A stretch of 30,187 nucleotides of DNA, from positions 1-30,187 of the IMG/VR virus record IMGVR_UViG_3300029448_007214, one strand, 5' to 3'. Below, one piece after another: positions 1 through 26,972 of this stretch (the first letter of the stretch is position 1; each line of letters starts with the position of its first letter). The notes beneath the pieces are model-generated. The model had not been told where the DNA came from and searched no databases. It saw only the letters and a program-made list of their open reading frames with translations. This DNA is from a virus. The position numbers were made by a program, and so were the translations under genes.

Positions 1-137
1 ATACTTGGACTTGGAAAGCCTTTGCACAAGTAGGAGCTTTATGTCCTGTACCTGGTCACGCAACTCATTTACAAGACAATTGCATAACACCTTACATAAA
101 TTGGGAAACTATTTACGATGCAATACGTAGCTCATAA
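1..137 (+). CDS. 3' end of an unidentified protein (partial)
   Basis: An open frame enters from the left edge; its first complete codon is at 3 and it ends with TAA at 135-137. The visible tail has about 44 residues and includes CPVPGHATHLQDN and PYINWETIYDAIRSS. It overlaps the start of the following aminotransferase by 20 bases, as is usual for neighbours in this operon. I do not recognise the family from this tail. Its position at the head of the sugar genes suggests, by inference only, another glycan-related enzyme. The other two frames either stop early or read as low-complexity peptide. Confidence 0.6.
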   Translation, partial: TWTWKAFAQVGALCPVPGHATHLQDNCITPYINWETIYDAIRSS

Positions 138-1110
138 AAAGATCGACTATTCGACTCTTACACGATATTTAGAACCAGCTCATAAAACTAATCAGTTTAC
201 TAACGGTGGCTGGGCTATAAATGAGCTTGAAACTCGTGCTCGTGAGATGTTAAAAATTTCTGAATCAAAGGCTATTGTAGCAACATCATCAGGAACATCA
301 GCACTTCATGCTATTCTATTTGCAATGATGAGACAAAATAATTCTAATCTGAGAGTAGCTACACAAGATTTTACTTTTCCTTCGTCATCTCAGGGTCCAG
401 CTACCGGTCCTATTATTGTCGATGTAGATCAAAACTGTAATATGAATATTTATGATGAGTTTGCTCATAATTACGGTCAAATCTATATAGTAACAAACTG
501 TTTTGGAAACGTTCAAGATCTTGATAATATTTTGTTGTATGCTCAAGAACACAAAAAAATAATTATATTTGACAACGCTGCAACTCCTTATACGTTTTAC
601 AACGGAATAAATACTTGTAATTTAGGACAGGCATCTTTTGTATCACTTCATCATACAAAACCTTTAGGATTCGGAGAAGGAGGTTTAGCTATCATAGATA
701 GACACCTTGAAGAAGGTGTTAGAATTGCTTGTAATTTTGGATTGGTAAATGGACAATTTAATGAAAGAGGAAGTAATTTTAAGATGAGTGAAATCTCTGC
801 TTCCGCAATTCTTCAATATTGGGATTCGTTTAATATTGATGATTTACAGAAAAAACTGCTTGATAATTATTTCAATAAACTATTTGAAATTAATAAACAA
901 TTTCAAGGAACTGTATTTCCAAACTATTCAGACGAAGATAATTTTTTACCCTCTTGTTTGCCTTATATATTTGAAAGACAAATGACTGAAAATGACTTTC
1001 CAGATGAAGATTGCAAAAAGTACTATCACCCTTTAAGAGGATTATCTAATTCTGTGGAGTTGTACAAAAAAATTATATGTTTTCCTATATTTGAGGATGG
1101 TAATGAATAA
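118..1110 (+). CDS. DegT/DnrJ/EryC1/StrS-family sugar aminotransferase
   Basis: Predicted PLP-dependent aminotransferase that adds an amino group to a keto nucleotide sugar. Motifs follow family order: ATSSGTSALHA (residues 55-65) fits the PLP-phosphate loop, FDNAATPY (151-158) carries the Asp that contacts the pyridine nitrogen, and HHTKPLGFGEGG (178-189) carries the probable Schiff-base lysine, K181. At 330 residues it is slightly short for the family (usually 360-400). It begins inside the end of the upstream frame and its stop overlaps the next gene, an RmlB-like dehydratase. That pairing is the classic route to a 4-amino or 3-amino dideoxy sugar: the dehydratase makes the 4-keto intermediate and this enzyme aminates it. 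Family assignment is firm; the substrate is unknown. Confidence 0.88.
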   Translation: MQYVAHKKIDYSTLTRYLEPAHKTNQFTNGGWAINELETRAREMLKISESKAIVATSSGTSALHAILFAMMRQNNSNLRVATQDFTFPSSSQGPATGPIIVDVDQNCNMNIYDEFAHNYGQIYIVTNCFGNVQDLDNILLYAQEHKKIIIFDNAATPYTFYNGINTCNLGQASFVSLHHTKPLGFGEGGLAIIDRHLEEGVRIACNFGLVNGQFNERGSNFKMSEISASAILQYWDSFNIDDLQKKLLDNYFNKLFEINKQFQGTVFPNYSDEDNFLPSCLPYIFERQMTENDFPDEDCKKYYHPLRGLSNSVELYKKIICFPIFEDGNE

Positions 1111-2065
1111 GATAGCAGTTATTACAGGATTTGCAGGATTTATAGGTACAACTTTTACACAACTACTCTTAAGTAAAGGCTGGAGAGTGTATGGAATTGA
1201 TAAATCAACACACGTTGCAAATTTTGCTCATTTATACTATGATCGTAATTTTTTTACTTACATTCAAGGAGACATCAAAGATATTGACTGGCTTCCAGAG
1301 TGTGATGTCATATTTAATTTTGCTGCTGAGTCTGACGTTGATATTGGAAATCAAAACTGCTCAAACTTTATTCAATCTAATATTGATGGTGTAAGAAATC
1401 TCTTAGAACTTGTAAATAATAGGATTGTAATTCGTTCTGATAAACCTTTATTTTTCCAAATATCTACTGATGAAGTTTACGGTGATATTATTGAAGGTGA
1501 GTTTGATGAGTCTGCTGTGTTAAATCCGTCTAACCCCTATTCTGCATCTAAAGCTGCAGCTGATCTGTTAATTCAAAGCTGGGCAAGAACTCATGGGTTA
1601 GAATATGTAATCGCTCGACCCTCCAACAATTATGGTTTCTATCAATACCCAGAAAAATTAATTCCACTTGCTGTAAAAAGACTGACACGGGGAAAATCAA
1701 TAAAACTTCACAACATGGGTAAACCTTACAGAACGTGGACTCACTCTGAAGATACAGCAGAGGCTATTCTGTTACTCTATGAAAAAGCAGAGAGAAATCG
1801 TATTTTTAATATTTCTTCACAGTACGAGCAGAGGAACATTGATACAGTTCACAAAATTTTAAAATCTTATTTTTTAGGTAGAATCAATAGGTCTCTACCT
1901 AAAATAAATGATTATTGTGATTTCTCTTATGAAAGACCAGGACAAGATGAAAGATATGCAATTTCATGCGAACCTCTAAGAGAGTTAGGTTGGGAACCAA
2001 AACATGATTTTGACAGAGACATTATAGAGTTAGTCAATCACTATAAAAAGGAGTTTGTTTGGTGA
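1103..2065 (+). CDS. dTDP-glucose 4,6-dehydratase-like SDR (RmlB-like)
   Basis: NAD-dependent extended short-chain dehydrogenase, probably forming a 4-keto-6-deoxy nucleotide sugar. An N-terminal Rossmann motif TGFAGFIG is followed by QGDIKD, the RmlB-type active-site segment STDEVYGDI, the catalytic YxxxK in PYSASKAAADLL, and SNNYGFYQYPEKLIPLA, which closely resembles the RmlB segment SNNYGPYHFPEKLIPL. The start was chosen at ATG 1103 because GAGG (1093-1096) lies 6 bases upstream; in-frame TTG 1091 and ATG 1097 leave no room for a ribosome binding site. Length is 320 residues against about 350 in RmlB. It overlaps the preceding stop by 8 bases and the next start by 4, implying translational coupling. 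Confidence 0.88.
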   Translation: MNKIAVITGFAGFIGTTFTQLLLSKGWRVYGIDKSTHVANFAHLYYDRNFFTYIQGDIKDIDWLPECDVIFNFAAESDVDIGNQNCSNFIQSNIDGVRNLLELVNNRIVIRSDKPLFFQISTDEVYGDIIEGEFDESAVLNPSNPYSASKAAADLLIQSWARTHGLEYVIARPSNNYGFYQYPEKLIPLAVKRLTRGKSIKLHNMGKPYRTWTHSEDTAEAILLLYEKAERNRIFNISSQYEQRNIDTVHKILKSYFLGRINRSLPKINDYCDFSYERPGQDERYAISCEPLRELGWEPKHDFDRDIIELVNHYKKEFVW

Positions 2066-3078
2066 AAAAGAAAAAAGTAGTAATTACAGGTATTTCTGGT
2101 CTTCTAGGAAGTACTTACGCACGTTATTTAATCAATAAAGGTTGTTATGAAGTTGTAGGAATCGATAATATGATAGGCGGTGTTGAGGGTAATGTTCCTG
2201 AACGCGCTCAATATATCAGAGGAGATATTCAAGATACTGCTCTATTAACTGAAATATGTGAAGGAGCTGATTGTGTATTTCATACTGCGGCACTTCCTTA
2301 TGAAGGTTTAAGTGTTTTCTCTCCTGCAATCACTGTCAATTCAATCGTATCTGGAACAGTATCTGTAGCTTCAGCTTGTATCGCTAATGATGTAAGACTT
2401 TTAATTAATTGTTCTTCTATGGCTCGCTATGGAGATCAACAACCACCTTTTACAGAAGATATGATTCGTAAACCTGTAGATCCTTATGGATTAGCGAAAG
2501 CCCAAGCTGAAGAACACCTTGAGATGTTAAACGAAATTCACGGACTAAATTTTGTAACAGTTGTTCCACACAACGTAATTGGTATTGGTCAGAGATATTA
2601 TGATCCTTTTAGAAACGTTGTGGGAATCATGATTAATCGTTGTATTCAAGGTAAACCAATCGTTATTTACGGTGACGGTGAACAAACAAGGTCTTTTTCA
2701 AATGTTTTGGATTGTATTGAAGCTGTATACAAAATGATGACAACTGATAGAGACATTGCAAGACAAATATTTAATATTGGTCCTGATGATAATGAGATTT
2801 CAATCAAACAATTAGCTTATAAAGTAGGACACTATTGTGAAATATATCCATCATTTAACCACTTTCCTGATAGACCCAGAGAGGTTAAAAACGCCTATTG
2901 TTCTTCAGATAAAATTAGAAAAGAATTCAATTATAATGCTTCAATTACAGTAGATCAGTCTATTAAAGACATGGTCGGATGGATAAAAGGGATGGAGCCA
3001 AAAGAGTTTGAATATCATTTACAATTAGAATTTACAACTGATGAAACCCCTAAAACATGGACGGATAAGTTAATCTAA
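2062..3078 (+). CDS. NAD-dependent nucleotide-sugar epimerase/dehydratase (GalE-like)
   Basis: A second extended SDR. It has the cofactor motif TGISGLLG, the acidic GIDNMIGG that binds the NAD ribose, RGDIQD, NCSSMARYG in the catalytic Ser/Thr region, and YGLAKAQAE with the YxxxK pair. PHNVIGIGQRYYDPF and YGDGEQTRSF match the substrate domain of UDP-hexose 4-epimerases. The start is taken as GTG 2062, with AAGGAG (2048-2053) 8 bases upstream, rather than TTG 2059. The start overlaps the TGA of the RmlB-like gene. With the previous two genes it makes a nucleotide-sugar conversion set. Whether it is an epimerase, dehydratase or reductase cannot be settled from motifs. Confidence 0.86.
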   Translation: MKKKKVVITGISGLLGSTYARYLINKGCYEVVGIDNMIGGVEGNVPERAQYIRGDIQDTALLTEICEGADCVFHTAALPYEGLSVFSPAITVNSIVSGTVSVASACIANDVRLLINCSSMARYGDQQPPFTEDMIRKPVDPYGLAKAQAEEHLEMLNEIHGLNFVTVVPHNVIGIGQRYYDPFRNVVGIMINRCIQGKPIVIYGDGEQTRSFSNVLDCIEAVYKMMTTDRDIARQIFNIGPDDNEISIKQLAYKVGHYCEIYPSFNHFPDRPREVKNAYCSSDKIRKEFNYNASITVDQSIKDMVGWIKGMEPKEFEYHLQLEFTTDETPKTWTDKLI

Positions 3079-3215
3079 TGTTATCTAGTTATGAATGGAT
3101 GTTACTAAGAGTCCTTGAAACTGAATTACAAAACCTTGAATTAAATAACAATAAACCAAAAATTAGAAATTGGTTACAACAGCGAATTAATAATTTAAAA
3201 AATAAAATTAAATGA
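3078..3215 (+). CDS. Small hypothetical protein, 45 residues
   Basis: A short frame starting in a TAATG overlap with the upstream epimerase stop and ending with TGA at 3213-3215. The product is lysine- and asparagine-rich with regularly spaced leucines and isoleucines (MLSSYEWMLLRVLE, then LQQRINNLKNKIK), so one or two amphipathic helices are likely. It fills a gap that otherwise has no gene, and its overlap style matches the rest of the operon. I know of no homologue. Residues are ordinary and no membrane segment or signal peptide is visible. Confidence 0.5.
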   Translation: MLSSYEWMLLRVLETELQNLELNNNKPKIRNWLQQRINNLKNKIK

Positions 3216-3242
3216 TATGAAACATAAAGAGTATAATTTTAT

Positions 3243-3983
3243 ATGAGCGTAAAAATCATAACACCCTATGTATATGAACAAGAAATAAAAGAACACAAAG
3301 ACTTATTTTGGGAATTAGATATACATTATGAAAGAGACGTAGCAGGCATTGGTTCTGACCTAATGTTTCAAAAAATGTGGAATCAGTTTCCTGAAGACGA
3401 CATTTTTATTTTACATGCCGACATGACTCCGCATCATGACGGCTGGTTTGAGGAGGTGCTTGAATATGTCGAGCAATATCCAAAAGCAGGAATGTTTGGT
3501 TGTTTGCTATTGTACCCTGCAAGAGACAAGAGTGGCAAATATTACATTCAATGTGCAGGAGGCAAATTCAGTGATGAAAGACCAGATCACTTTGGAAGTG
3601 GGTTGGTTCTTGAGAACGGGGGAACATTTAAGTCAGAGCTGGAGATTGATACAGGACAGTACGATTCCACGAGGGAGGTGGCATGGACAACATTTGGAGG
3701 TTGCTACATTAGACGGAAGTTTATCAATTCCGTGGGCGACTTTGACCCCTCCTTTGAGTGGACATACAACAGAGACGTTGATTACTGCCTTACAGGAAGA
3801 CAAAATGGTTTTCACATCTATCAAATACCTGTACGAATCTTTCACCATGAATCAAGAGATAATAAGCGAATAAAGGATGAGTCTAAACTTAAGATGGAAA
3901 TGAGAAACCTCGCTCGACTACAGACGAAATGGGCAAACTCAAACTTTTATAAAACGCTGGACAAGGAGATAAAAAATGGATAA
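3243..3983 (+). CDS. GT2-like glycosyltransferase
   Basis: Predicted GT-A fold glycosyltransferase. IFILHADMTPHHDGW (about 54-68) sits where family 2 enzymes have the metal-binding DxD. WTTFGGCYIRRKFI and FDPSFEWTYNRDVDYCLTGRQNGF, followed by VRIFHHES, match the acceptor-site region of rhamnosyltransferase-type GT2 proteins (GGxxxxRR, then D-D-x-x, then HH). At 246 residues it lacks part of the usual N-terminal nucleotide-binding half or has a reduced version. Base composition rises to roughly 48-53% G+C over 3421-3720, well above the flanking genes, suggesting separate acquisition. An AAAGAG stretch precedes the ATG by about 11 bases. Confidence 0.78.
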   Translation: MSVKIITPYVYEQEIKEHKDLFWELDIHYERDVAGIGSDLMFQKMWNQFPEDDIFILHADMTPHHDGWFEEVLEYVEQYPKAGMFGCLLLYPARDKSGKYYIQCAGGKFSDERPDHFGSGLVLENGGTFKSELEIDTGQYDSTREVAWTTFGGCYIRRKFINSVGDFDPSFEWTYNRDVDYCLTGRQNGFHIYQIPVRIFHHESRDNKRIKDESKLKMEMRNLARLQTKWANSNFYKTLDKEIKNG

Positions 3984-4188
3984 GGTGTATATAACTAAAG
4001 ATGAGTTAACAAATTCTATACACAAACAACGTGAAAAAGCAGGTCCTTTAGTCACAACATTAATCGTGCTAGCCTTGTGTGTTAGTGTAGTATGGTTAAT
4101 ACCGTTGATGGTTTTTTGGGTATTGTTTTTGATGTTCTGTATACCGTTTTATTTGTTAGATAAGTATATTTTTAATAGGAGAAAATAA
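3976..4188 (+). CDS. Small membrane protein, 70 residues
   Basis: A good ribosome binding site (AAGGAG at 3963-3968) lies 7 bases before the ATG. A charged N-terminal stretch of about 24 residues is followed by a long hydrophobic region, roughly residues 25-62, long enough for two closely spaced membrane helices, and then a basic tail FNRRK. This suggests a hairpin in the inner membrane with both ends in the cytoplasm. It overlaps the glycosyltransferase before it and shares one base with the methyltransferase after it. It could anchor or help the glycan enzymes, as small membrane partners of glycosyltransferases do, but that is inference. Confidence 0.72.
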   Translation: MDKVYITKDELTNSIHKQREKAGPLVTTLIVLALCVSVVWLIPLMVFWVLFLMFCIPFYLLDKYIFNRRK

Positions 4189-4931
4189 TGGGTAAGTTAA
4201 ATTATGAGTGGGTCAAAGCCTCGCTTGAAATGGCAGATAATGAAAAGTCTAAATTAACAGAAAGAGAGCGAGATCTATTTGGACTTAGCTCTATCAGATT
4301 ACGTTGTTTAATTAATAATTTATGTGCGGCAGAAAAAGTAAACTATTTAGAAATTGGATGTTACAAAGGTGCTACTTTAATTTCTGCTGCTCGTGGAAAT
4401 GATGTTACTGCAGTTGGTGTAGATAACTTTAAATATGATGACAGAGAACCTAATAAGTGGGCACCTGAAGGTTACATCTGGGATAATATGAAGTCTCAAC
4501 TTGATGCTAATATTAATACATATAGGCTACAACCTGATGTAGTAAATGGAGAGTCTATATCAATTATTGAATCAGATTTTCAAAAAGCAGATTTACCAAA
4601 AAATAAATTTAATGTATGTTTTTTTGATATTTCACCAGTAGATGAAGCTTCATATGAAGAGTTTTTTAACCATGTATTACCAAGTCTCACTCAAAGCTCA
4701 GTTGTAATATTTAGTCAACAATCAAACCATGTTCATGCTAATCATCTAAATGACGCTATCACTAAGTATTCTAATAGTGTTAATTCACAGTTCAACGAAA
4801 AAAGAGTATCTGGAAGCAACGCTGATGCAACTAAATACTATAGTGGTATTCGGATATTCGGTTTTGTCAAAAAAGCTGTTTCAAAAACAGATACTAAAAC
4901 CTCAAATAATACACAGGTAAAAAATGACTAA
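4188..4931 (+). CDS. SAM-dependent methyltransferase (class I)
   Basis: The segment NYLEIGCYKGATLISAA (about 52-68) is the glycine-rich SAM-binding motif I of class I methyltransferases. AVGVDNF follows at the expected spacing for motif II (acidic residue binding the ribose), and FNVCFFDIS fits motif IV. The overall pattern is closest to the Methyltransf_24 type often found among glycan and secondary-metabolite genes. AGGAG at 4173-4177 serves the ATG, which overlaps the upstream stop by one base. In this setting it most likely methylates a sugar hydroxyl or a glycan end. The last 30 residues are a polar Lys/Thr/Asn tail, probably disordered. Confidence 0.8.
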   Translation: MGKLNYEWVKASLEMADNEKSKLTERERDLFGLSSIRLRCLINNLCAAEKVNYLEIGCYKGATLISAARGNDVTAVGVDNFKYDDREPNKWAPEGYIWDNMKSQLDANINTYRLQPDVVNGESISIIESDFQKADLPKNKFNVCFFDISPVDEASYEEFFNHVLPSLTQSSVVIFSQQSNHVHANHLNDAITKYSNSVNSQFNEKRVSGSNADATKYYSGIRIFGFVKKAVSKTDTKTSNNTQVKND

Positions 4932-5775
4932 GAAAAAAAGTGCGATTAGTTTAATATCATATGATGCAAATCGATTTTTACCAAAATCAATTGAACGCTA
5001 TTACAATTATGTTGATGAAATTATACTAGGTATAGATAAAGATCGTATAACATGGAGCGGAAATACATTTTCTATAGATGAGAATGCACTGTGGAACGAT
5101 TTATCTAAAATTGATGGTGATGGAAAAATCTCAATCATTGAAGAGGACTTTCATCAATCTGAGGTTGCAATTGAAAATGATAATTATGAACGTAATTTTT
5201 TAAAATCTCAATGTTCTTATGATTGGATCTTTTCTTTTGATGCTGATGAAGTATTAGTAAATGCAAAAGATTTCTTTTACGATTTTTGTCCAATAGCAGA
5301 ACCTTACTTTGATACAAGAGATATTTGTATGACTTGGGCTACTCCTTACAAAGTTGTTACAGATGATGAAGGCAATTCACAAATTTTAGTCATAGCTGAT
5401 GAAAATGATTGTCCATTTTTTGGAGAGAATCAAGGAGTTGTTACATCTAAAGATAGCACTTATACCTATGCAAGATGGACAGACAAATCTGCTGCAGGAA
5501 ATAACAGACTTATGAGTCCTCTAGTTGCCCTACACTGGAGTTTGTGTAGACCTGATAATGAATTGCATGAAAAGATCAATAATATCGGGCATTCTGATTT
5601 AGTTGAAAAAGATCCTTTTTATCAAATTTGGTCTCAAGTTACTTGGGATAACTATCATGAATTAGAAAATTTTAAAACTTCAGGACTAGGTGGTTCTCAA
5701 TGGCCTAAACTATTTGCTGTACCTCATGATGAGGTTGAAAATTATATTAAACAATTTGCTGGGAGAGCTTACTAA
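4924..5775 (+). CDS. Glycosyltransferase (GT-A, family 2-like)
   Basis: The protein opens with SAISLISYDANRFLPKSIERYYNYVDEIILGIDKD, an opening strand-helix-strand typical of GT-A enzymes where the sugar nucleotide binds. DWIFSFDADEVL (about 100-111) holds the metal-binding DxD (D106, D108) followed by Glu. The C-terminal half has conserved-looking aromatic and His residues (ALHWSLCR, TWDNYHELENF). It overlaps the methyltransferase by 8 bases and the next glycosyltransferase by one. Its length, 283 residues, is normal for a single-domain GT. Donor and acceptor are unknown. Confidence 0.76.
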   Translation: MTKKKSAISLISYDANRFLPKSIERYYNYVDEIILGIDKDRITWSGNTFSIDENALWNDLSKIDGDGKISIIEEDFHQSEVAIENDNYERNFLKSQCSYDWIFSFDADEVLVNAKDFFYDFCPIAEPYFDTRDICMTWATPYKVVTDDEGNSQILVIADENDCPFFGENQGVVTSKDSTYTYARWTDKSAAGNNRLMSPLVALHWSLCRPDNELHEKINNIGHSDLVEKDPFYQIWSQVTWDNYHELENFKTSGLGGSQWPKLFAVPHDEVENYIKQFAGRAY

Positions 5776-6947
5776 TGAAGATTGAAATAGTCGGTAAATT
5801 TTACGATAATCACTCACTTACTATCATTAATCGTAACCTAGCAATTGAGTTAAGTAATAGTCATGATGTCTATGTCACTCCTTTAGATTCATATGATCCT
5901 GCTTATGGAGTAAGTAAACATATTATAAAAAAGATAAAAACCCTTACGGAAAAAGAACATCCTAAACAAGGTGGATTAGATATTCAAATTAGACACTCTT
6001 ACCCACCAATATGGCAGTGGCCTTCACATGACAATACTAAGGTAATTTACATTCAACCTTGGGAATACCCAAAGTTACCTTTTGAATGGCAACATAAATG
6101 GGAAACTTTTGCTGACCATATTATTGTTCCTTCAAATTATATAAGAAATATTGCAATCAGAGGAGGTCTAGATCCTCAAAAGATTAGCACTATCCCAAAT
6201 GGTTATAACGATAAAGTATTTAATAAGGAAGCAAAACCTACAAACAAATTTGGAATAGATTCGAGCAAATTTAATTTTGTTTATGTCGGTAATTCTCAAT
6301 GGAGAAAAGGTTTAGATATTCTTATAAATGCGTGGCATAAAAGTTTTAAATCTTATGATAATGCCAGACTTATTATTAAAGACAATCCACAAATTTATGG
6401 TAAGAACAATGTACTAAATGAGATAGTTAAAATGCAGTATAAGACTGGATGTGCTAAAGTAACGTATATTGATAGTGTGCTATCTGATGAAGATATGTCA
6501 GAGTTGTTCGCAGCGTCTAAAGTTGTTGTGCACCCTTATAGAGCAGAAGGATTTGGTATGCATATCCAAGAAGCTGTAGCCTGTGGTTGTTTACCTATTT
6601 TACCAGATAAAGGTCCTCACCAAGATTTTATACCAGATGATATTGGTTTAAGAGTGCAAACTAAGCCATCTCCTATAGATATCACTTCTGGAGAAGTTTT
6701 TGCTCAAAAACCAGGTGACTCTTTTACCATGATGAATTCTCATACATTTATGAACGAGCCAGATGGACATTCTTTACAAAAAATGTTACAATGGATCTAT
6801 CACTCACATGATAAAGAAGAGTATTTTAAAAGAGCAAACGAAGTTGAATTACCAAATACTTGGGAAACAGTTGCTAAATCTTATATAGAAATTATTGAGA
6901 ACACACATGGAAAAGAATCAAGCCCCTTCCGAATCAGAAATAGATAA
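5775..6947 (+). CDS. GT4-family glycosyltransferase (GT-B fold)
   Basis: The C-terminal half carries the hallmark of family 4: FNFVYVGNSQWRKGLDILINAW opens the nucleotide-sugar domain, and AEGFGMHIQEAVACGCLPILPD contains the E-x7-E donor-binding motif. The N-terminal half has IIVPSNYIRNIAIRGGLDPQKISTIPNGYN, the normal hinge region of this family. Length (390 residues) is full. GGGAG at 5761-5765 precedes a TAATG start overlap. The 3' end runs 41 bases into the Fe-S carrier gene. It probably adds one of the sugars made by the upstream nucleotide-sugar genes to a glycan, whether host surface or virion. Confidence 0.88.
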   Translation: MKIEIVGKFYDNHSLTIINRNLAIELSNSHDVYVTPLDSYDPAYGVSKHIIKKIKTLTEKEHPKQGGLDIQIRHSYPPIWQWPSHDNTKVIYIQPWEYPKLPFEWQHKWETFADHIIVPSNYIRNIAIRGGLDPQKISTIPNGYNDKVFNKEAKPTNKFGIDSSKFNFVYVGNSQWRKGLDILINAWHKSFKSYDNARLIIKDNPQIYGKNNVLNEIVKMQYKTGCAKVTYIDSVLSDEDMSELFAASKVVVHPYRAEGFGMHIQEAVACGCLPILPDKGPHQDFIPDDIGLRVQTKPSPIDITSGEVFAQKPGDSFTMMNSHTFMNEPDGHSLQKMLQWIYHSHDKEEYFKRANEVELPNTWETVAKSYIEIIENTHGKESSPFRIRNR

Positions 6948-7446
6948 ATGGTTTGCTGAACTTGAAGCAGAACTAGAGCAAACTAAAGATGAAAATGAAA
7001 TTGCAAGACTAGCTCAAAAGGTTTTAGATAATCATCAACCATCTCTTGCAGATAAAGTATTACAAGATTTTCATGGAAACGCTCCAATTATTGATGAGTC
7101 TTATTCTGGTCAGTTGCCAGAAATTACTCCTAAAGCTAGAATATTTATTACTCAGAATTTGGAAGAAGGACAATATTTTAAGTTTTCAGTCTACGGTGGA
7201 GGATGCTCAGGTTTTAATTATGCTTTTGATGTGGCTTCAGAAATTACAGACGAAGACATTCAGTTTTCGGAATCACCGCCAGCTTTAGTAGATCGTGAAT
7301 CTTTACAATTTTTATACGGAACTACTATAGACTTAGAAGATCAAGGGATGAATAAGCTTCTCAAAGTTGATAATCCTGGAGCTCGTGCTTCATGTGGTTG
7401 TGGAACTAGTTTTGCTTTTGATGAAGAATTGTTAGATATATATTAA
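6907..7446 (+). CDS. A-type iron-sulfur cluster carrier (IscA/ErpA/HesB family)
   Basis: The C-terminal 105 residues match A-type carriers: VYGGGCSGFNYAFD (C100) and NPGARASCGCGTSFAFD (C163, C165) give the three cluster-binding cysteines at the IscA/ErpA spacing. Members of this family hand [2Fe-2S] or [4Fe-4S] clusters to apo-proteins. An unusual N-terminal extension of about 70 residues is highly acidic and helical (DKWFAELEAELEQTKDENEIARL) and may dock to a partner. The start is ATG 6907; in-frame TTG 6895 is less likely. The gene overlaps the GT4 gene and is joined by a TAATG junction to a 2OG-Fe(II) oxygenase-like gene. Of the other genes here, NrdA and the oxygenases use iron, but none is an obvious Fe-S client. 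Confidence 0.9.
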   Translation: MEKNQAPSESEIDKWFAELEAELEQTKDENEIARLAQKVLDNHQPSLADKVLQDFHGNAPIIDESYSGQLPEITPKARIFITQNLEEGQYFKFSVYGGGCSGFNYAFDVASEITDEDIQFSESPPALVDRESLQFLYGTTIDLEDQGMNKLLKVDNPGARASCGCGTSFAFDEELLDIY

Positions 7447-8078
7447 TGAGAGATTTTAACTGGATTGTTAATGATAGCGGGTTGCCTTGGCTAAAACTTA
7501 ATATAGACTTCAATCATGAATCTATGTTAAAAGAAGCTGTTGCATTAAAAGACAAGTTTGTTAAACATCGTGATCAAGATGGGACAGGTGGTTACAGACA
7601 TGAGGGTTGGCGCAGTTTAGCTATTCATGGTATTTCATCAGAAAAGACTAATCATTATGAACAATATGGATATAAATCTAATGATGAAACTCCATACCGC
7701 TGGACTGAGATATCAGGGTTGTGTCCTAACACAGTTGCTTTTTTTAAAAACGTCTTTCCCTATAAAAAATATTTTAGAGTAAGATTCATGCTATTAGAGC
7801 CTGGAGGGTTCATCACTCCTCATGTAGATACTGATATCCATAAATTATCTCCTATTAACATGGCACTTAATCATCCTAAAGGATGTAAAATGAAAATGAA
7901 GGGTCATGAAGGTTTTGTCCCATTTAAACCAGGAACTGCTATGATGTTAGACGTTGGCAATGAACATGCATATATCAATGATTCTGATGAAGATAGATAC
8001 CATATTATTGTTCACGGAGTAAAAACTAAAGAATTTGAAGAGCTGGTAATAAGAAGTTATGAAACGAATTATGGGTAA
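7446..8078 (+). CDS. 2OG-Fe(II) oxygenase, aspartyl/asparaginyl beta-hydroxylase-like
   Basis: YFRVRFMLLEPGGFITPHVDTD (about 109-130) provides the HxD iron ligands H126 and D128 in the setting used by aspartyl/asparaginyl beta-hydroxylases (R-x-R on the preceding strand, PGG before the His). GTAMMLDVGNEHAYINDSDEDRYHIIVHG supplies the distal His H174 and the 2-oxoglutarate-binding Arg R184. The double-stranded beta-helix core therefore looks complete. The product is 210 residues and starts at TAATG with no strong ribosome binding site, implying coupling to the Fe-S carrier gene. Substrate could be a protein side chain, a glycan lipid or a nucleobase; sequence alone does not say. Confidence 0.82.
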   Translation: MRDFNWIVNDSGLPWLKLNIDFNHESMLKEAVALKDKFVKHRDQDGTGGYRHEGWRSLAIHGISSEKTNHYEQYGYKSNDETPYRWTEISGLCPNTVAFFKNVFPYKKYFRVRFMLLEPGGFITPHVDTDIHKLSPINMALNHPKGCKMKMKGHEGFVPFKPGTAMMLDVGNEHAYINDSDEDRYHIIVHGVKTKEFEELVIRSYETNYG

Positions 8079-9432
8079 AAATAAAAATTATGTAGTTGGG
8101 ATTTATGACGATACTCGTATATCTAATAACTTAACTCAAGCAGAAAAAAATAAAGAAATTACTGAGTTTTTTACAAGATTTAAATACTTTGGCCCAATTA
8201 TAGTTAAGAATAATATTAACGATGTATTAGATGAAGCCTTAGAACATGATGTTGATTACTGTATAGTTCAATCTGTTGGTCATATCATTAAAGATGCCTT
8301 GTTTTTTACTTTTATCGAGAAATGGATAGAAAAACAAGATTTTTTTATTACAGGACATATTATGGATAAAAATAAAAAGAACCTTAATAATCCAACAGGC
8401 AAAGAAGGTTATTATGGATTACATAAGCAGTGTATGTTGGTTAATTTAAACTACTATAAAAAATTTGATAAACCAGTCTTTGGTAACAAAAATAGTGGAG
8501 AAGAGTTTGTGGTCAAGGCTGAGAGACATGCTAAAAATATTCATGATGATTATACACCATTATCTTTAAAACCAACAGAAGAACTAACTATATGTACACC
8601 TCTAGTTGATGGTTGGAACTTTATCAATGTTAGTTTGCAAAATGATCTGACGGTATACAATTTTCATCCAAAAATTCGCGAGTCTAAAGAGTATATCTAC
8701 CCTACGACCAGTGCTGCAGAGTTAGAGCATCAACTTTCATGGATAACTAATATAGTTAACTACGCTCAACAATGTGTATTTTTTTGGAATACAGAAAATT
8801 ATGCAGATCTAAAGTATGTCCCTATCGATAAACCTATTAAAAAACTCTATGCAGTTGCTGCTAGTTTTAAACCTAATATGATATTAAATCATTACGGATT
8901 TACTGATAATTGTGAGATAGTGTATTACGACTATAGCAAGGCTGCTTTAGCTTTTAAAAAGTTATTACTAAAAGAATGGAATGGCGAAGATTATCCTTTA
9001 TTTTTAGACTATGCACAAAAGAAATTTCAAATTAATGAAACAGGTGGGAATGAAACTCAAAAATTAAGTAGAAATCAGCTATGGGAACGAGAGCTAGAGT
9101 GGTGGGGATCTGAAAAAGATATTAAAGATCATTGGGATAGATATAAAAATCTAAATCATTCTTTCATTCATTGTGATATATGTGAGGCGCCAGAAAAGCT
9201 AACTTCTCAAATCACTCCTGAAGAAGATTCTGTCATATGGTGGAGTAACGCTTTTCACACAGTTGGAGCACAATATACAAGAGGACTAAAAGGTGTTAAA
9301 AGCAGTTACGAAAATTGGCTACAACAAATTAATAATAAAAATCCAAATATTTGGATTTTAGGAAAAGACTACTTAGACAGACCTGTAGAAGGTGATAAAT
9401 TAAAGGATTATTTATATGCTTATGATTGCTAA
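8059..9432 (+). CDS. Large unidentified protein, 457 residues
   Basis: No motif gives a confident family. The N-terminal third has features that would suit a GT-A-like fold: YVVGIYDDTR at the start, then HDVDYCIVQSVGHII, then FFITGHIMDKN and GYYGLHKQCMLVNLNYYKKF, which resembles the acceptor region of some glycosyltransferases. The C-terminal part is rich in Trp and acidic residues (WERELEWWGSEKDIKDHW, VIWWSNAFHTVGAQY). Start could be ATG 8059 or ATG 8071; 8059 keeps a short AAGAAG nearby. It overlaps oxygenase-type genes on both sides (20 and 17 bases), so it probably works in the same pathway. Not predicted to be secreted or in the membrane. Confidence 0.55.
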   Translation: MKRIMGKNKNYVVGIYDDTRISNNLTQAEKNKEITEFFTRFKYFGPIIVKNNINDVLDEALEHDVDYCIVQSVGHIIKDALFFTFIEKWIEKQDFFITGHIMDKNKKNLNNPTGKEGYYGLHKQCMLVNLNYYKKFDKPVFGNKNSGEEFVVKAERHAKNIHDDYTPLSLKPTEELTICTPLVDGWNFINVSLQNDLTVYNFHPKIRESKEYIYPTTSAAELEHQLSWITNIVNYAQQCVFFWNTENYADLKYVPIDKPIKKLYAVAASFKPNMILNHYGFTDNCEIVYYDYSKAALAFKKLLLKEWNGEDYPLFLDYAQKKFQINETGGNETQKLSRNQLWERELEWWGSEKDIKDHWDRYKNLNHSFIHCDICEAPEKLTSQITPEEDSVIWWSNAFHTVGAQYTRGLKGVKSSYENWLQQINNKNPNIWILGKDYLDRPVEGDKLKDYLYAYDC

Positions 9433-10000
9433 GACAAAGTTAGTTTTTGATAACTCTTGGCTATCAAAACTCACTTTTAAACCTCATGACGATTATGATT
9501 TAGCAGGTAATGTTGATGCAGTAGCAATTAAGAGCGTTGATGGAAATGCTCATAGTTTTTATCGTCGTAAATCTATTGAGTATCCAGAAGATTTTACTTA
9601 CACTAAATACTATAATTTATGTAAATCCCTTATTGATTTTTTTGAGTTTGAAACTACCCGTATAAGAGTACATAAACAAGAACCTGGTCAAATTATCCCT
9701 ATTCACACAGACGATAATAATATTAACGCAAAAACAAATGATGATTTTAGATTAAGAGCAGTTACCGCCTTAACTGGTAATGATGATTTTATCTATCAGT
9801 TTCAATTAAATAATGAGATAGAACAGTTTAGCTTAAAAACTGGAGAAACAGTTATATTTGATCCTGACTTAGTAGGACACGGTATGGTTAATCAATCGTT
9901 AGATAAAACTAGATACTCATTGGTTCAAGTTTTTAAAGCATACCCAGTATCTAACTGGTTGAAAAACTTTATTAATACAGATAAAATAGAAATTATATGA
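9416..10000 (+). CDS. 2OG-Fe(II) oxygenase-like protein
   Basis: TTRIRVHKQEPGQIIPIHTDD (about 80-100) repeats the pattern seen in the hydroxylase at 7446: a basic strand, a Pro-Gly turn, then an HxD motif (H97, D99). The distal ligand is probably H155 in DPDLVGHGMVNQ, with R166 (DKTRYSLVQVF) placed to bind 2-oxoglutarate. I therefore read it as a second, divergent member of the aspartyl/asparaginyl hydroxylase-like group, 194 residues long. AAGGA lies about 8 bases before the ATG. The start overlaps the large unknown gene by 17 bases and the stop overlaps the PC4-like gene by 4. The substrate is unknown. Confidence 0.74.
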   Translation: MLMIAKTKLVFDNSWLSKLTFKPHDDYDLAGNVDAVAIKSVDGNAHSFYRRKSIEYPEDFTYTKYYNLCKSLIDFFEFETTRIRVHKQEPGQIIPIHTDDNNINAKTNDDFRLRAVTALTGNDDFIYQFQLNNEIEQFSLKTGETVIFDPDLVGHGMVNQSLDKTRYSLVQVFKAYPVSNWLKNFINTDKIEII

Positions 10001-24101: not shown

Positions 24102-24124
24102 ACACAACAGTGACGTGACTACTA

Positions 24125-24231
24125 GGCAACTCCGTTGCCACGGCTGCGTCTCTCCGAGACTAACGCTAGAACACAACGTTTCAAGCCTTGTTCCACAGCT
24201 TTTCACCTGCGGTGATGCGTTGTTCACTAGC
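24125..24231. other. G+C-rich structured intergenic element
   Basis: The 201-base gap between two genes has about 52% G+C over 24121-24240 against about 17% in the next 60 bases. It contains three short stems with 3-base loops: GGCAAC/GTTGCC (24125-24130, 24134-24139), GTCTC/GAGAC (24148-24152, 24156-24160) and TCACC/GGTGA (24203-24207, 24211-24215). A longer stem encloses the third: GCTAG (24165-24169) with CTAGC (24227-24231), then ACAACG (24173-24178) with CGTTGT (24218-24223). Read on the minus strand, all three loops are C(GNA)G: GGA, GGA, GCA. No tRNA shape and no convincing ORF fits. It may be a structured RNA or a DNA hairpin element such as an origin or promoter. Confidence 0.6.
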
Positions 24232-24240
24232 TAACTCACA

Positions 24241-24302
24241 TAAATTAGCATATTTTTTGAGAATTAGCAATAACAAAAATTTTATTTTGAACAGATATTA
24301 TA
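24241..24302 (+). promoter_or_regulatory. AT-rich leader, candidate promoter
   Basis: About 17% G+C. TTGAGA (24257-24262) lies 17 bases before TTTTAT (24280-24285), a modest sigma70-type match; TATTAT (24296-24301) is a better -10 but has no good -35. Either would drive the SGNH-like gene, whose GTG start at 24303 has no Shine-Dalgarno. An AT-rich tract beside a structured G+C-rich element is also how a replication origin would look. Confidence 0.35.
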
Positions 24303-25105: not shown

Positions 25106-26068
25106 ATGATTAAAATTTTATGTTCAGCTGATTGGCACATCAATCTACACAAAAAGAAGGTTCCATACGATTGGCAGGTCAATCGATTTCGTGAAATGTT
25201 TCGCAAGCTGATCGCCCTTGAGGCACGTGTAGATGTGCATGTGATAGCTGGTGACATCTTTGATAAAAAGCCTGAGCCAGATGAAATCTCACTGTTTTTA
25301 AGCTATATCAATTCAGTGACCGTTCCCACTCTCATCATTCCAGGAAATCATGAAGCTACTCGCAAGGGGGAAACATTCTTTGAGCATTTAACTGAAAAGA
25401 ATGCTATCAAAAATACTCATGTGCAGGTATTTACCAGAAATGGTCGTTGTGAAATAGCAGGACAAGGATTCCAGTTGTTTCCATATGGCGAGATGCAAAC
25501 TGATAACCTACCTGAGTATGAATCTGGAGATATTCTTGTGACTCATATTCGCGGAGAAGTTCCACCACATATCACTCCAGAGTATGACTTTGATAAGCTT
25601 AATCCATGGGGTTTGACACTGTTAGGTGATTTACATTTTAATCACCGCTATCAAAACACTAATTGCTATTATCCAGGATCGCCAGTTAATACAACTTTTG
25701 ATCGCGATGAAAAGCGTAAATACGGAGTAGATATTTATGAAGTGATAGATTCACATAACTACACACGTGAATTTTACGATTTAGATCTTCCAAAGCTAGT
25801 ACGTCGCACAATTCAAGCTGGAGAAAAAATGCGACCTGATTCTCATCATCATGTGATGTATGAGGTGACTGGTAATATAGATCAACTGTCAAAGATTGAA
25901 CGGTCTGATCTACTAGACAAAAAAGTTGTAGAAAAGCCTCAAGAAGATGCAACTCTTGATTTAAAAAACAAAACAATCTATGAAGAACTTGAAATCTATC
26001 TTAACCATATTAAGGTAGCTGATACTGAAAGGGTGTTAAATGAGTACAAGTCTTTGGGACTCAATTGA
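25106..26068 (+). CDS. SbcD/Mre11-like nuclease subunit (T5 D12 / T4 gp47-like)
   Basis: Metal-dependent phosphoesterase motifs in order: SADWHI (D9, H11), IAGDIFDKKP (D50), PGNHEA (N81, H82), ILVTHIRGE (H147), LLGDLHFNH (D175, H177). It should act with the SbcC-like ATPase as a DNA end-processing nuclease for recombination-dependent replication. A good ribosome binding site (AAAGAAGG) precedes the ATG. Length 320 is typical. G+C reaches about 50% over the first 200 bases of the gene, higher than the neighbours. Its 3' end overlaps a PP-loop gene by 29 bases, which separates it from its partner subunit. Confidence 0.9.
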   Translation: MIKILCSADWHINLHKKKVPYDWQVNRFREMFRKLIALEARVDVHVIAGDIFDKKPEPDEISLFLSYINSVTVPTLIIPGNHEATRKGETFFEHLTEKNAIKNTHVQVFTRNGRCEIAGQGFQLFPYGEMQTDNLPEYESGDILVTHIRGEVPPHITPEYDFDKLNPWGLTLLGDLHFNHRYQNTNCYYPGSPVNTTFDRDEKRKYGVDIYEVIDSHNYTREFYDLDLPKLVRRTIQAGEKMRPDSHHHVMYEVTGNIDQLSKIERSDLLDKKVVEKPQEDATLDLKNKTIYEELEIYLNHIKVADTERVLNEYKSLGLN

Positions 26069-26972
26069 TTATTCTTTGAACCGTACTTATTGGTTGTATG
26101 AAAAAAATCAATCAATTTGGCGTCCTGCTGATTATGATTGGGATTTTGCTGGAATACATAGAGGAGCTATAGTCTCTGTACCAGAGTATTCAAGAAGAGG
26201 AAGCAACTTGTTTGTTGATATGAAAAAGTTAGTATCAAAATTTCATCAAACACATAAAGGTGAATACGTAATTACTATGAGTGGAGGAATAGATTCAGAA
26301 CTAGTAGCAGAAACATTTTATCAACTAAATATTCCTTTTAGAGTGTTAATACAGAGACTGTTTAAAGGCGCGAATGACTATGACATTATGTATGCTATTA
26401 AATATTGTAAACAGAGATCAATTCCTTATAATTTGATTGGTCTTTCTTTTGATAAATTTGTCAAACACATCATTCCTGATGCATGCACCTATGGTCAGTT
26501 TTCGGCATCTTATTCACAAATAGCACTAACTAATTTGTTTAACTATGTAAAAGAGTCTGAAATCATAGTTTTTTCAGGGCACAATCCTGACTTTGATCCA
26601 TACATTGGAATCGGTTGGAATGAGGATTCGCCTAATTTAGTTAAACAAGCAATCGCTAAAAATAAAAAGTTCTTTACTTTTACATCTCTTGAACCTATTT
26701 TTTGTCACTATGCCGCAAACTATGACCCAGATCAACCAGGCATGAAAGATAATGAATTTATCTACTCTGTATATCCACAACTGCCTAGACGTAAAAAACT
26801 AACAGGCTGGGAATACGTTGATCAATATCAACTATTTGATATAATTGAAGAAGTTAATTCGTATTCTAAAACACTATTTACTCCTTTTATTTCTTGGCCT
26901 AGATTTAAAGATAAATTTGATGAACGATTCCCTCTTAAAAAAGTGCATCAACTAAAAAACGGAAAAGTATAA
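26040..26972 (+). CDS. PP-loop (adenine nucleotide alpha-hydrolase) ATPase
   Basis: EYVITMSGGIDSELVAETFYQL contains the PP-loop SGGxDS (81-86), which binds the pyrophosphate of ATP in enzymes that adenylate a substrate (asparagine synthetase, ThiI, QueC, GMP synthetase). FRVLIQRLFKGANDYDIMYAIKYCKQRSIPYNLIGL gives the usual next strand and helix, and IIVFSGHNPDFDP fits the later conserved strand. It has no CxxC zinc site, so it is not QueC, and no glutaminase domain. The 310-residue protein has an aromatic-rich N-terminus. It overlaps the nuclease gene by 29 bases and shares one base with the SbcC-like gene. The substrate is unknown; modification of a base, sugar or protein is likely. Confidence 0.78.
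   Translation: MSTSLWDSIDYSLNRTYWLYEKNQSIWRPADYDWDFAGIHRGAIVSVPEYSRRGSNLFVDMKKLVSKFHQTHKGEYVITMSGGIDSELVAETFYQLNIPFRVLIQRLFKGANDYDIMYAIKYCKQRSIPYNLIGLSFDKFVKHIIPDACTYGQFSASYSQIALTNLFNYVKESEIIVFSGHNPDFDPYIGIGWNEDSPNLVKQAIAKNKKFFTFTSLEPIFCHYAANYDPDQPGMKDNEFIYSVYPQLPRRKKLTGWEYVDQYQLFDIIEEVNSYSKTLFTPFISWPRFKDKFDERFPLKKVHQLKNGKV

Follow-up and report, generated by a model that had tools for sequence, protein, structure and literature searches.

DNA hairpins with GNA or GNNA loops form extraordinarily stable mini-hairpins (PMC4686876). Phage N4 uses a related fold in its promoters, where a triloop hairpin of the template strand is closed by a C-G pair and contains a sheared G:A pair, while part of the stem sequence may vary provided that it still pairs (PMC4496689). 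For T5-like phages, the replication apparatus has not been widely studied (PMC5180179). Here we describe a conserved non-coding element of about 140 bp from uncultured T5-like phages, in which tandem hairpins of this kind covary. GNA mini-hairpins, hairpin promoters and iteron origins were already known; as far as our searches go, their covarying combination is new, and no description of the element was found in the literature searched. We regard it as nearly certain that the element is real. Judging from sequence comparison, it very likely represents a functional site on the phage DNA.

The stretch of DNA analysed (the window) is a virus record of 30,187 bp in which every gene reads rightward. 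A sugar/glycan biosynthesis block is followed by a T5-like replication block comprising NAD ligase, D5-like protein, DnaB-like helicase, primase, polymerase, D10-like helicase, SSB, D12 and D13; a ribonucleotide-reductase-like gene is present as well. The polymerase is about 40% identical to that of T5. Next to the replication block, the run of sugar-nucleotide, glycosyltransferase and oxygenase-like genes (positions 118–10000) is, among the relatives compared, common to G001 and G002 only. Between D12 and D13 lies a gene with an SGGIDSE (PP-loop ATPase-like) motif (26040–26972), which is kept in relatives G001–G011 and was not found in the regions of T5 or Vibrio phage Thalassa that were searched.

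The hairpins are located in a gap at 24102–24302 (Table 1). A preliminary description of the window had noticed three minus-strand C(GNA)G hairpins here, with the triloops GGA, GGA and GCA closed by C-G pairs. All three were confirmed and turned out to be the sole hairpins of this kind in the window: among its 50 triloop hairpins with a stem of at least 5 bp, exactly these three are of the C(GNA)G type. On the plus strand they read GGCAAC-TCC-GTTGCC, GTCTC-TCC-GAGAC and TCACC-TGC-GGTGA, and they contain four, three and three G-C pairs, respectively. In dinucleotide shuffles of the whole window, such hairpins averaged 0.38 per 30 kb; two of them within 90 bp arose in 0 of 300 whole-window shuffles, and when the gap alone was shuffled, 0 of 20,000 versions contained as many as two. 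The G+C-rich island reported earlier (52% against 17%) was reproduced with slightly different values, namely 54.2% at 24125–24231 and 18.3% in the next 60 bases. The interval first assigned to the island, 24125–24231, thus contains a real element, but the conserved part is wider and spans about 24110–24252. A larger stem with a 3x3 internal loop, proposed to enclose hairpin 3, is indeed present in the window (24165–24183 with 24213–24231), but it is not conserved across 79 relatives. The corresponding regions paired over at least 5 bp in 51% of them versus 52% in shuffles, and the enclosing stem was therefore ruled out as a conserved feature.

Table 1. Features of the hairpin-bearing element in the window
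Feature	Position	Strand	Details
Conserved GTGACGTGAC block (tandem GTGAC)	24110..24119	+	5' of hairpin 1
Hairpin 1	24125..24139	-	GGCAAC-GGA-GTTGCC on minus strand; 6 bp; GNA triloop
Hairpin 2	24148..24160	-	GTCTC-GGA-GAGAC on minus strand; 5 bp; GNA triloop
Box 1, TTCAAGCCTT	24180..24189	+	Weakly conserved; 11 bp before box 2
Box 2, TTCCACAGCT	24191..24200	+	Family consensus TGTTCAnnAGCT
Box 3, TTCA	24202-24205		Overlapped by left arm of hairpin 3; 11 bp after box 2
Hairpin 3	24203..24215	-	TCACC-GCA-GGTGA on minus strand; loop GNA, GNNA in some relatives
Box 4, TTCACTAGCT	24223..24232	+	32 bp after box 2 (31-33 in relatives)
Conserved TTAGCATA	24245..24252	+	In A+T-rich right flank

Relatives were collected by two routes. 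A search with D12 yielded 77 loci, most of which carried tandem hairpins to the left of D12. An independent pattern scan of IMG/VR contigs, keyed on the box/hairpin-3 part alone, gave 96 stretches, which were reduced to 79 distinct elements by removing duplicates and one false match (L091). Hairpins 1 and 2 were both present in all 79 elements recovered through hairpin 3. Since the scan asked for the box/hairpin-3 part alone, the test of stems 1 and 2 is unbiased by the discovery of the element. Eight long element-bearing records gave one match per contig. The carriers are uncultured T5-like phages that form a large group, represented here by metagenomic contigs. The element was absent from the INPHARED phages and from the 49 kb scanned of each of T5 and Thalassa, and a search of sequenced prokaryote genomes revealed no link to a host. 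Rfam returned no match at the gathering score and permissive matches were near chance; neither an Rfam family nor a tRNA identity was found. On the element-bearing T5-like contig of relative G002, we observed a permuted tmRNA gene (L171:14689-15017, minus strand) with the tag ANDNFAHEDYALAA, which we take to look alphaproteobacterial and to hint at such a host. The longest ORFs of G001, G002 and G011 (2,138–2,411 codons) encode large late-block proteins starting with a CFPAGT/CFIGGT-like stretch, which suggests an intein or Hint domain. Two further hairpin candidates were set aside. A cluster at 60.1–60.7 kb of the distant relative G010 lies inside Lys/Arg-rich reading frames and was taken as chance; an upstream GTATC-GGA-GATAC hairpin of many relatives was not counted, as its sequence and distance suggest that it lies within the SSB gene, where it would code for a G-V/I-G-D-T stretch.

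A lack of compensatory stem changes in relatives had been named beforehand as grounds for giving up the hairpins; instead, we found strong covariation around a conserved G-N-A loop. Scored on distinct hairpin sequences, 115 of 115 cells of stem 1 were paired, with a covariation score of 0.384 versus 0.084 in shuffles, and 97.8% of the cells of stem 2, with 0.500 versus 0.134. Both scores exceeded all 500 shuffles and every slid register. Changes on both sides occurred in four of five pairs of either stem, and zero pairs had changed on one side alone, so that no G-U pair is present. When corrected mutual information was computed for all column pairs of the whole element, the top three were stem pairs, each with 100% Watson-Crick pairing. 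The minimum number of state changes on a tree of 69 D12 proteins was 7 for stem 1 and 11 for stem 2, counts that are to be read with the possibility that the element recombines separately from D12. Many of the stem changes come down to two block types, GCAAC with GTCTC versus GGAAC with GGCAC; some look like block swaps, so that the independent events are fewer than the cells. Wobble at the stem ends was asymmetric, A-C on the plus strand being commoner than G-T, a hint of the minus strand that was set aside because the events were few.

The loops also follow a rule. Read on the minus strand, the loop of hairpin 1 is GNA in 79 of 79 elements and that of hairpin 2 in 77 of 79, the remaining two having GTTA. 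In both hairpins the closing C-G pair and the first and last loop bases are invariant, and the plus-strand middle base is A, C or T; about 20 changes, one four-base loop counted in, occurred in the loop of hairpin 2 on the D12 tree. Hairpin 3 carries TGC or TAC on the plus strand in most copies. Four-base loops on this strand are TAAC, TGCC and TGGC, corresponding to GTTA, GGCA and GCCA on the minus strand, with TGCT in two copies as the exception. The minus-strand loops can hence be read as G-N-A or G-N-N-A, and the hairpins of the window combine such a loop with C-G closure and at least two G-C pairs. This rule, defined by dozens of natural variants, is the main argument for folded single-stranded DNA of the minus strand. 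Conserved secondary structure is nearly always taken for RNA, but in this element both the loop rule and the missing G-U pairs speak for single-stranded DNA that folds, the absence of G-U being expected for DNA and also possible for short strong RNA stems. Folding energies were uninformative as a guide to RNA versus DNA or to the strand: ViennaRNA energies of both strands were equal for three-base loops, and mean z-scores were modest for RNA and DNA alike. Taken together, the element probably acts at the DNA level, and we infer that its acting form is single-stranded DNA, specifically the minus strand.

The INDEPENDENCE of genes was examined next. Element and D12 point the same way in 117 of 117 locus copies, several of these loci being copies of one contig. 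The distance to D12 is 78–88 bp in 68 copies and 650–3,513 bp in the others. At least nine gene types adjoin the element downstream and at least seven upstream. The G002 copy is flanked by a small gene and by dUTPase and is located about 6 kb downstream of D12. The interchangeable neighbours and the placement in G002 indicate that the element is not the leader of one particular gene; a leader of D12 was ruled out, since 0.65–3.5 kb of other genes can intervene and the G002 element is downstream of D12. The surrounding module encodes the DnaB-like helicase, primase, polymerase, D10-like helicase and SSB. The flanking genes are swapped far more than the element itself, which therefore sits at a gene-exchange hotspot.

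Duplex features accompany the hairpins. TTCA boxes occur at 0, 11 and 31–33 bp (box 2, the left arm of hairpin 3 and box 4), spacings that correspond to about one and three helical turns, and the flanking boxes show a TTCA...AGCT pattern. The GTGACGTGAC block is found left of hairpin 1 in the window and in many relatives. The right flank has 18% G+C, and the TTAGCATA motif within it may belong to an unwinding region or represent a weak -10 box. Just right of this motif, L083, L103 and L028 contain a possible fourth short hairpin, TTTC-TAC-GAAA or TTTC-TCAC-GAAA, that obeys the same loop rule. A recurrent promoter motif was rejected, as the box, TTAGCATA and GTGACGTGAC motifs gave no more than scattered matches with one mismatch at other sites. 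An intrinsic terminator was rejected as well, no terminator-like site being seen in the region.

Among the roles considered in the preliminary description, a single-stranded DNA mini-hairpin site is the best supported because of the loop rule, the lack of G-U pairs, the independence from flanking genes and the single copy per genome. We tentatively read the element as a single-copy cis-acting DNA element that may serve as a replication-initiation or priming site, an assignment that we hold at slightly less than an even chance. It is based on a unique, gene-independent site within a replication module, phased boxes, an A+T-rich flank and single-strand hairpins, from which we infer that the process served would be replication. 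In this model, the duplex would be opened by supercoiling, fork passage or initiator binding, and on the opened minus strand two C(GNA)G mini-hairpins would form next to each other, with a third among the helically phased TTCA...AGCT boxes. The folded strand as well as the boxes would then be recognised by proteins: the phased boxes would be bound by an initiator or by the D5-like DNA-binding protein, the A+T-rich right flank would open, and the minus-strand hairpins, persisting against the phage single-strand-binding protein, would direct the phage primase and the DnaB-type helicase. More speculatively, the element might be a clade-wide origin of T5-like phages that is encoded by the fold of one DNA strand, with stems that drift as long as they pair, loops fixed as G-N-A/G-N-N-A and phased duplex boxes for an initiator; we consider this possible yet doubtful. 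If true, a phage with double-stranded DNA would have a single-stranded DNA origin defined by covariation, and an origin at this site would provide a testable replication start point for T5-like phages. GC skew in five long relatives follows the gene strand without a switch at the element; as an origin test it was uninformative and gives no support. A search for the T5 origin-binding protein, run without a positive control, gave no match in the partial records searched, and no initiator was identified.

Control of transcription at the DNA level appears unlikely, although several features would suit it. As single-stranded hairpins do in phage N4, the folded strand and the phased boxes could constitute an upstream activation or hairpin-promoter region; it would serve the rightward operon, whichever genes this holds, and would be read by the host RNA polymerase with phage factors. 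The rightward genes have the minus strand as their template, so that a template-strand G-N-A triloop hairpin does lie upstream of genes, and the constant orientation suits a promoter region. TTAGCATA is followed by a short leader and resembles a -10 box, a manual reading reveals a possible promoter (TTCACT-17-TAGCAT) overlapping the right side of the element, and L053 has a terminator-like hairpin just upstream. However, the promoter scan reported none at the element, the spacing between box 4 and TAGCAT varies from 15 to 17, and the motifs are absent from other gene starts, though such phages normally have many promoters. An N4-type promoter, as suggested at the outset, found no support: the longest ORFs in six partial relatives do not resemble the giant virion RNA polymerase (about 3,500 aa, T7-like fold), a search with Pfam RNA_pol PF00940, run without a positive control, gave no match, and the element is unique. 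Were it a promoter after all, hairpin promoters would extend beyond N4-like phages.

A structured RNA is rather improbable. It could be a transcript leader or processing element on the plus strand, or the minus strand could give rise to a small antisense RNA; either way, a protein would recognise two or three hairpins. Tandem hairpins that covary and keep their loop ends are a typical trait of protein-binding RNA, and the plus strand is expected to be transcribed by read-through. Neither stem, however, shows G-U or any other one-sided change. Loops such as GTTA, GGCA and GCCA fit the GNNA rule of DNA and not the GNRA rule of RNA. The interchangeable neighbouring genes, the missing Rfam match and the region's lack of a terminator-like site also argue against an RNA.

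Least likely, and in our view very improbable, is a recombination, nicking or packaging site at which the hairpins would be substrates of the adjacent D12/D13 (SbcCD-like) nuclease or a cleavage mark: it would also account for the gene swapping around the element with its highly variable neighbours and for the position 78–88 bp before D12 in most copies, but D12 is about 6 kb upstream of the element in G002, the element has no linked transposase or integrase, and SbcCD is known to act on long palindromes, not on 5-bp hairpins.

Returning to the replication-initiation or priming site as the preferred reading, we compared the element with known systems. Escherichia phage T5 has a homologous gene order (ligase, D5-like protein, DnaB-like helicase, primase, polymerase, D10, SSB, D12, D13), but a putative terminator lies between its D11 and D12 and no such hairpin cluster occurs in the 49 kb scanned. 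The mini-hairpins of Hirao, d(GCGNAGC) and d(C-GNNA-G), obey the same GNA/GNNA rule with C-G closure (PMC4686876), yet they are a known physical motif rather than a covarying element that defines a phage clade. Like the promoters of the N4 virion RNA polymerase, the element has short stems, variable in part where pairing persists, and three-base, C-G-closed loops of the sheared G:A type on the template strand; unlike them, it has two adjacent hairpins plus a third and phased boxes, and it is present in one copy per genome, whereas N4 has several early promoters. With iteron-type and single-strand-initiation origins of phages and plasmids, to which no sequence relation was found, it shares phased direct boxes, an A+T-rich flank, hairpins, the single copy and the place inside a replication gene module.
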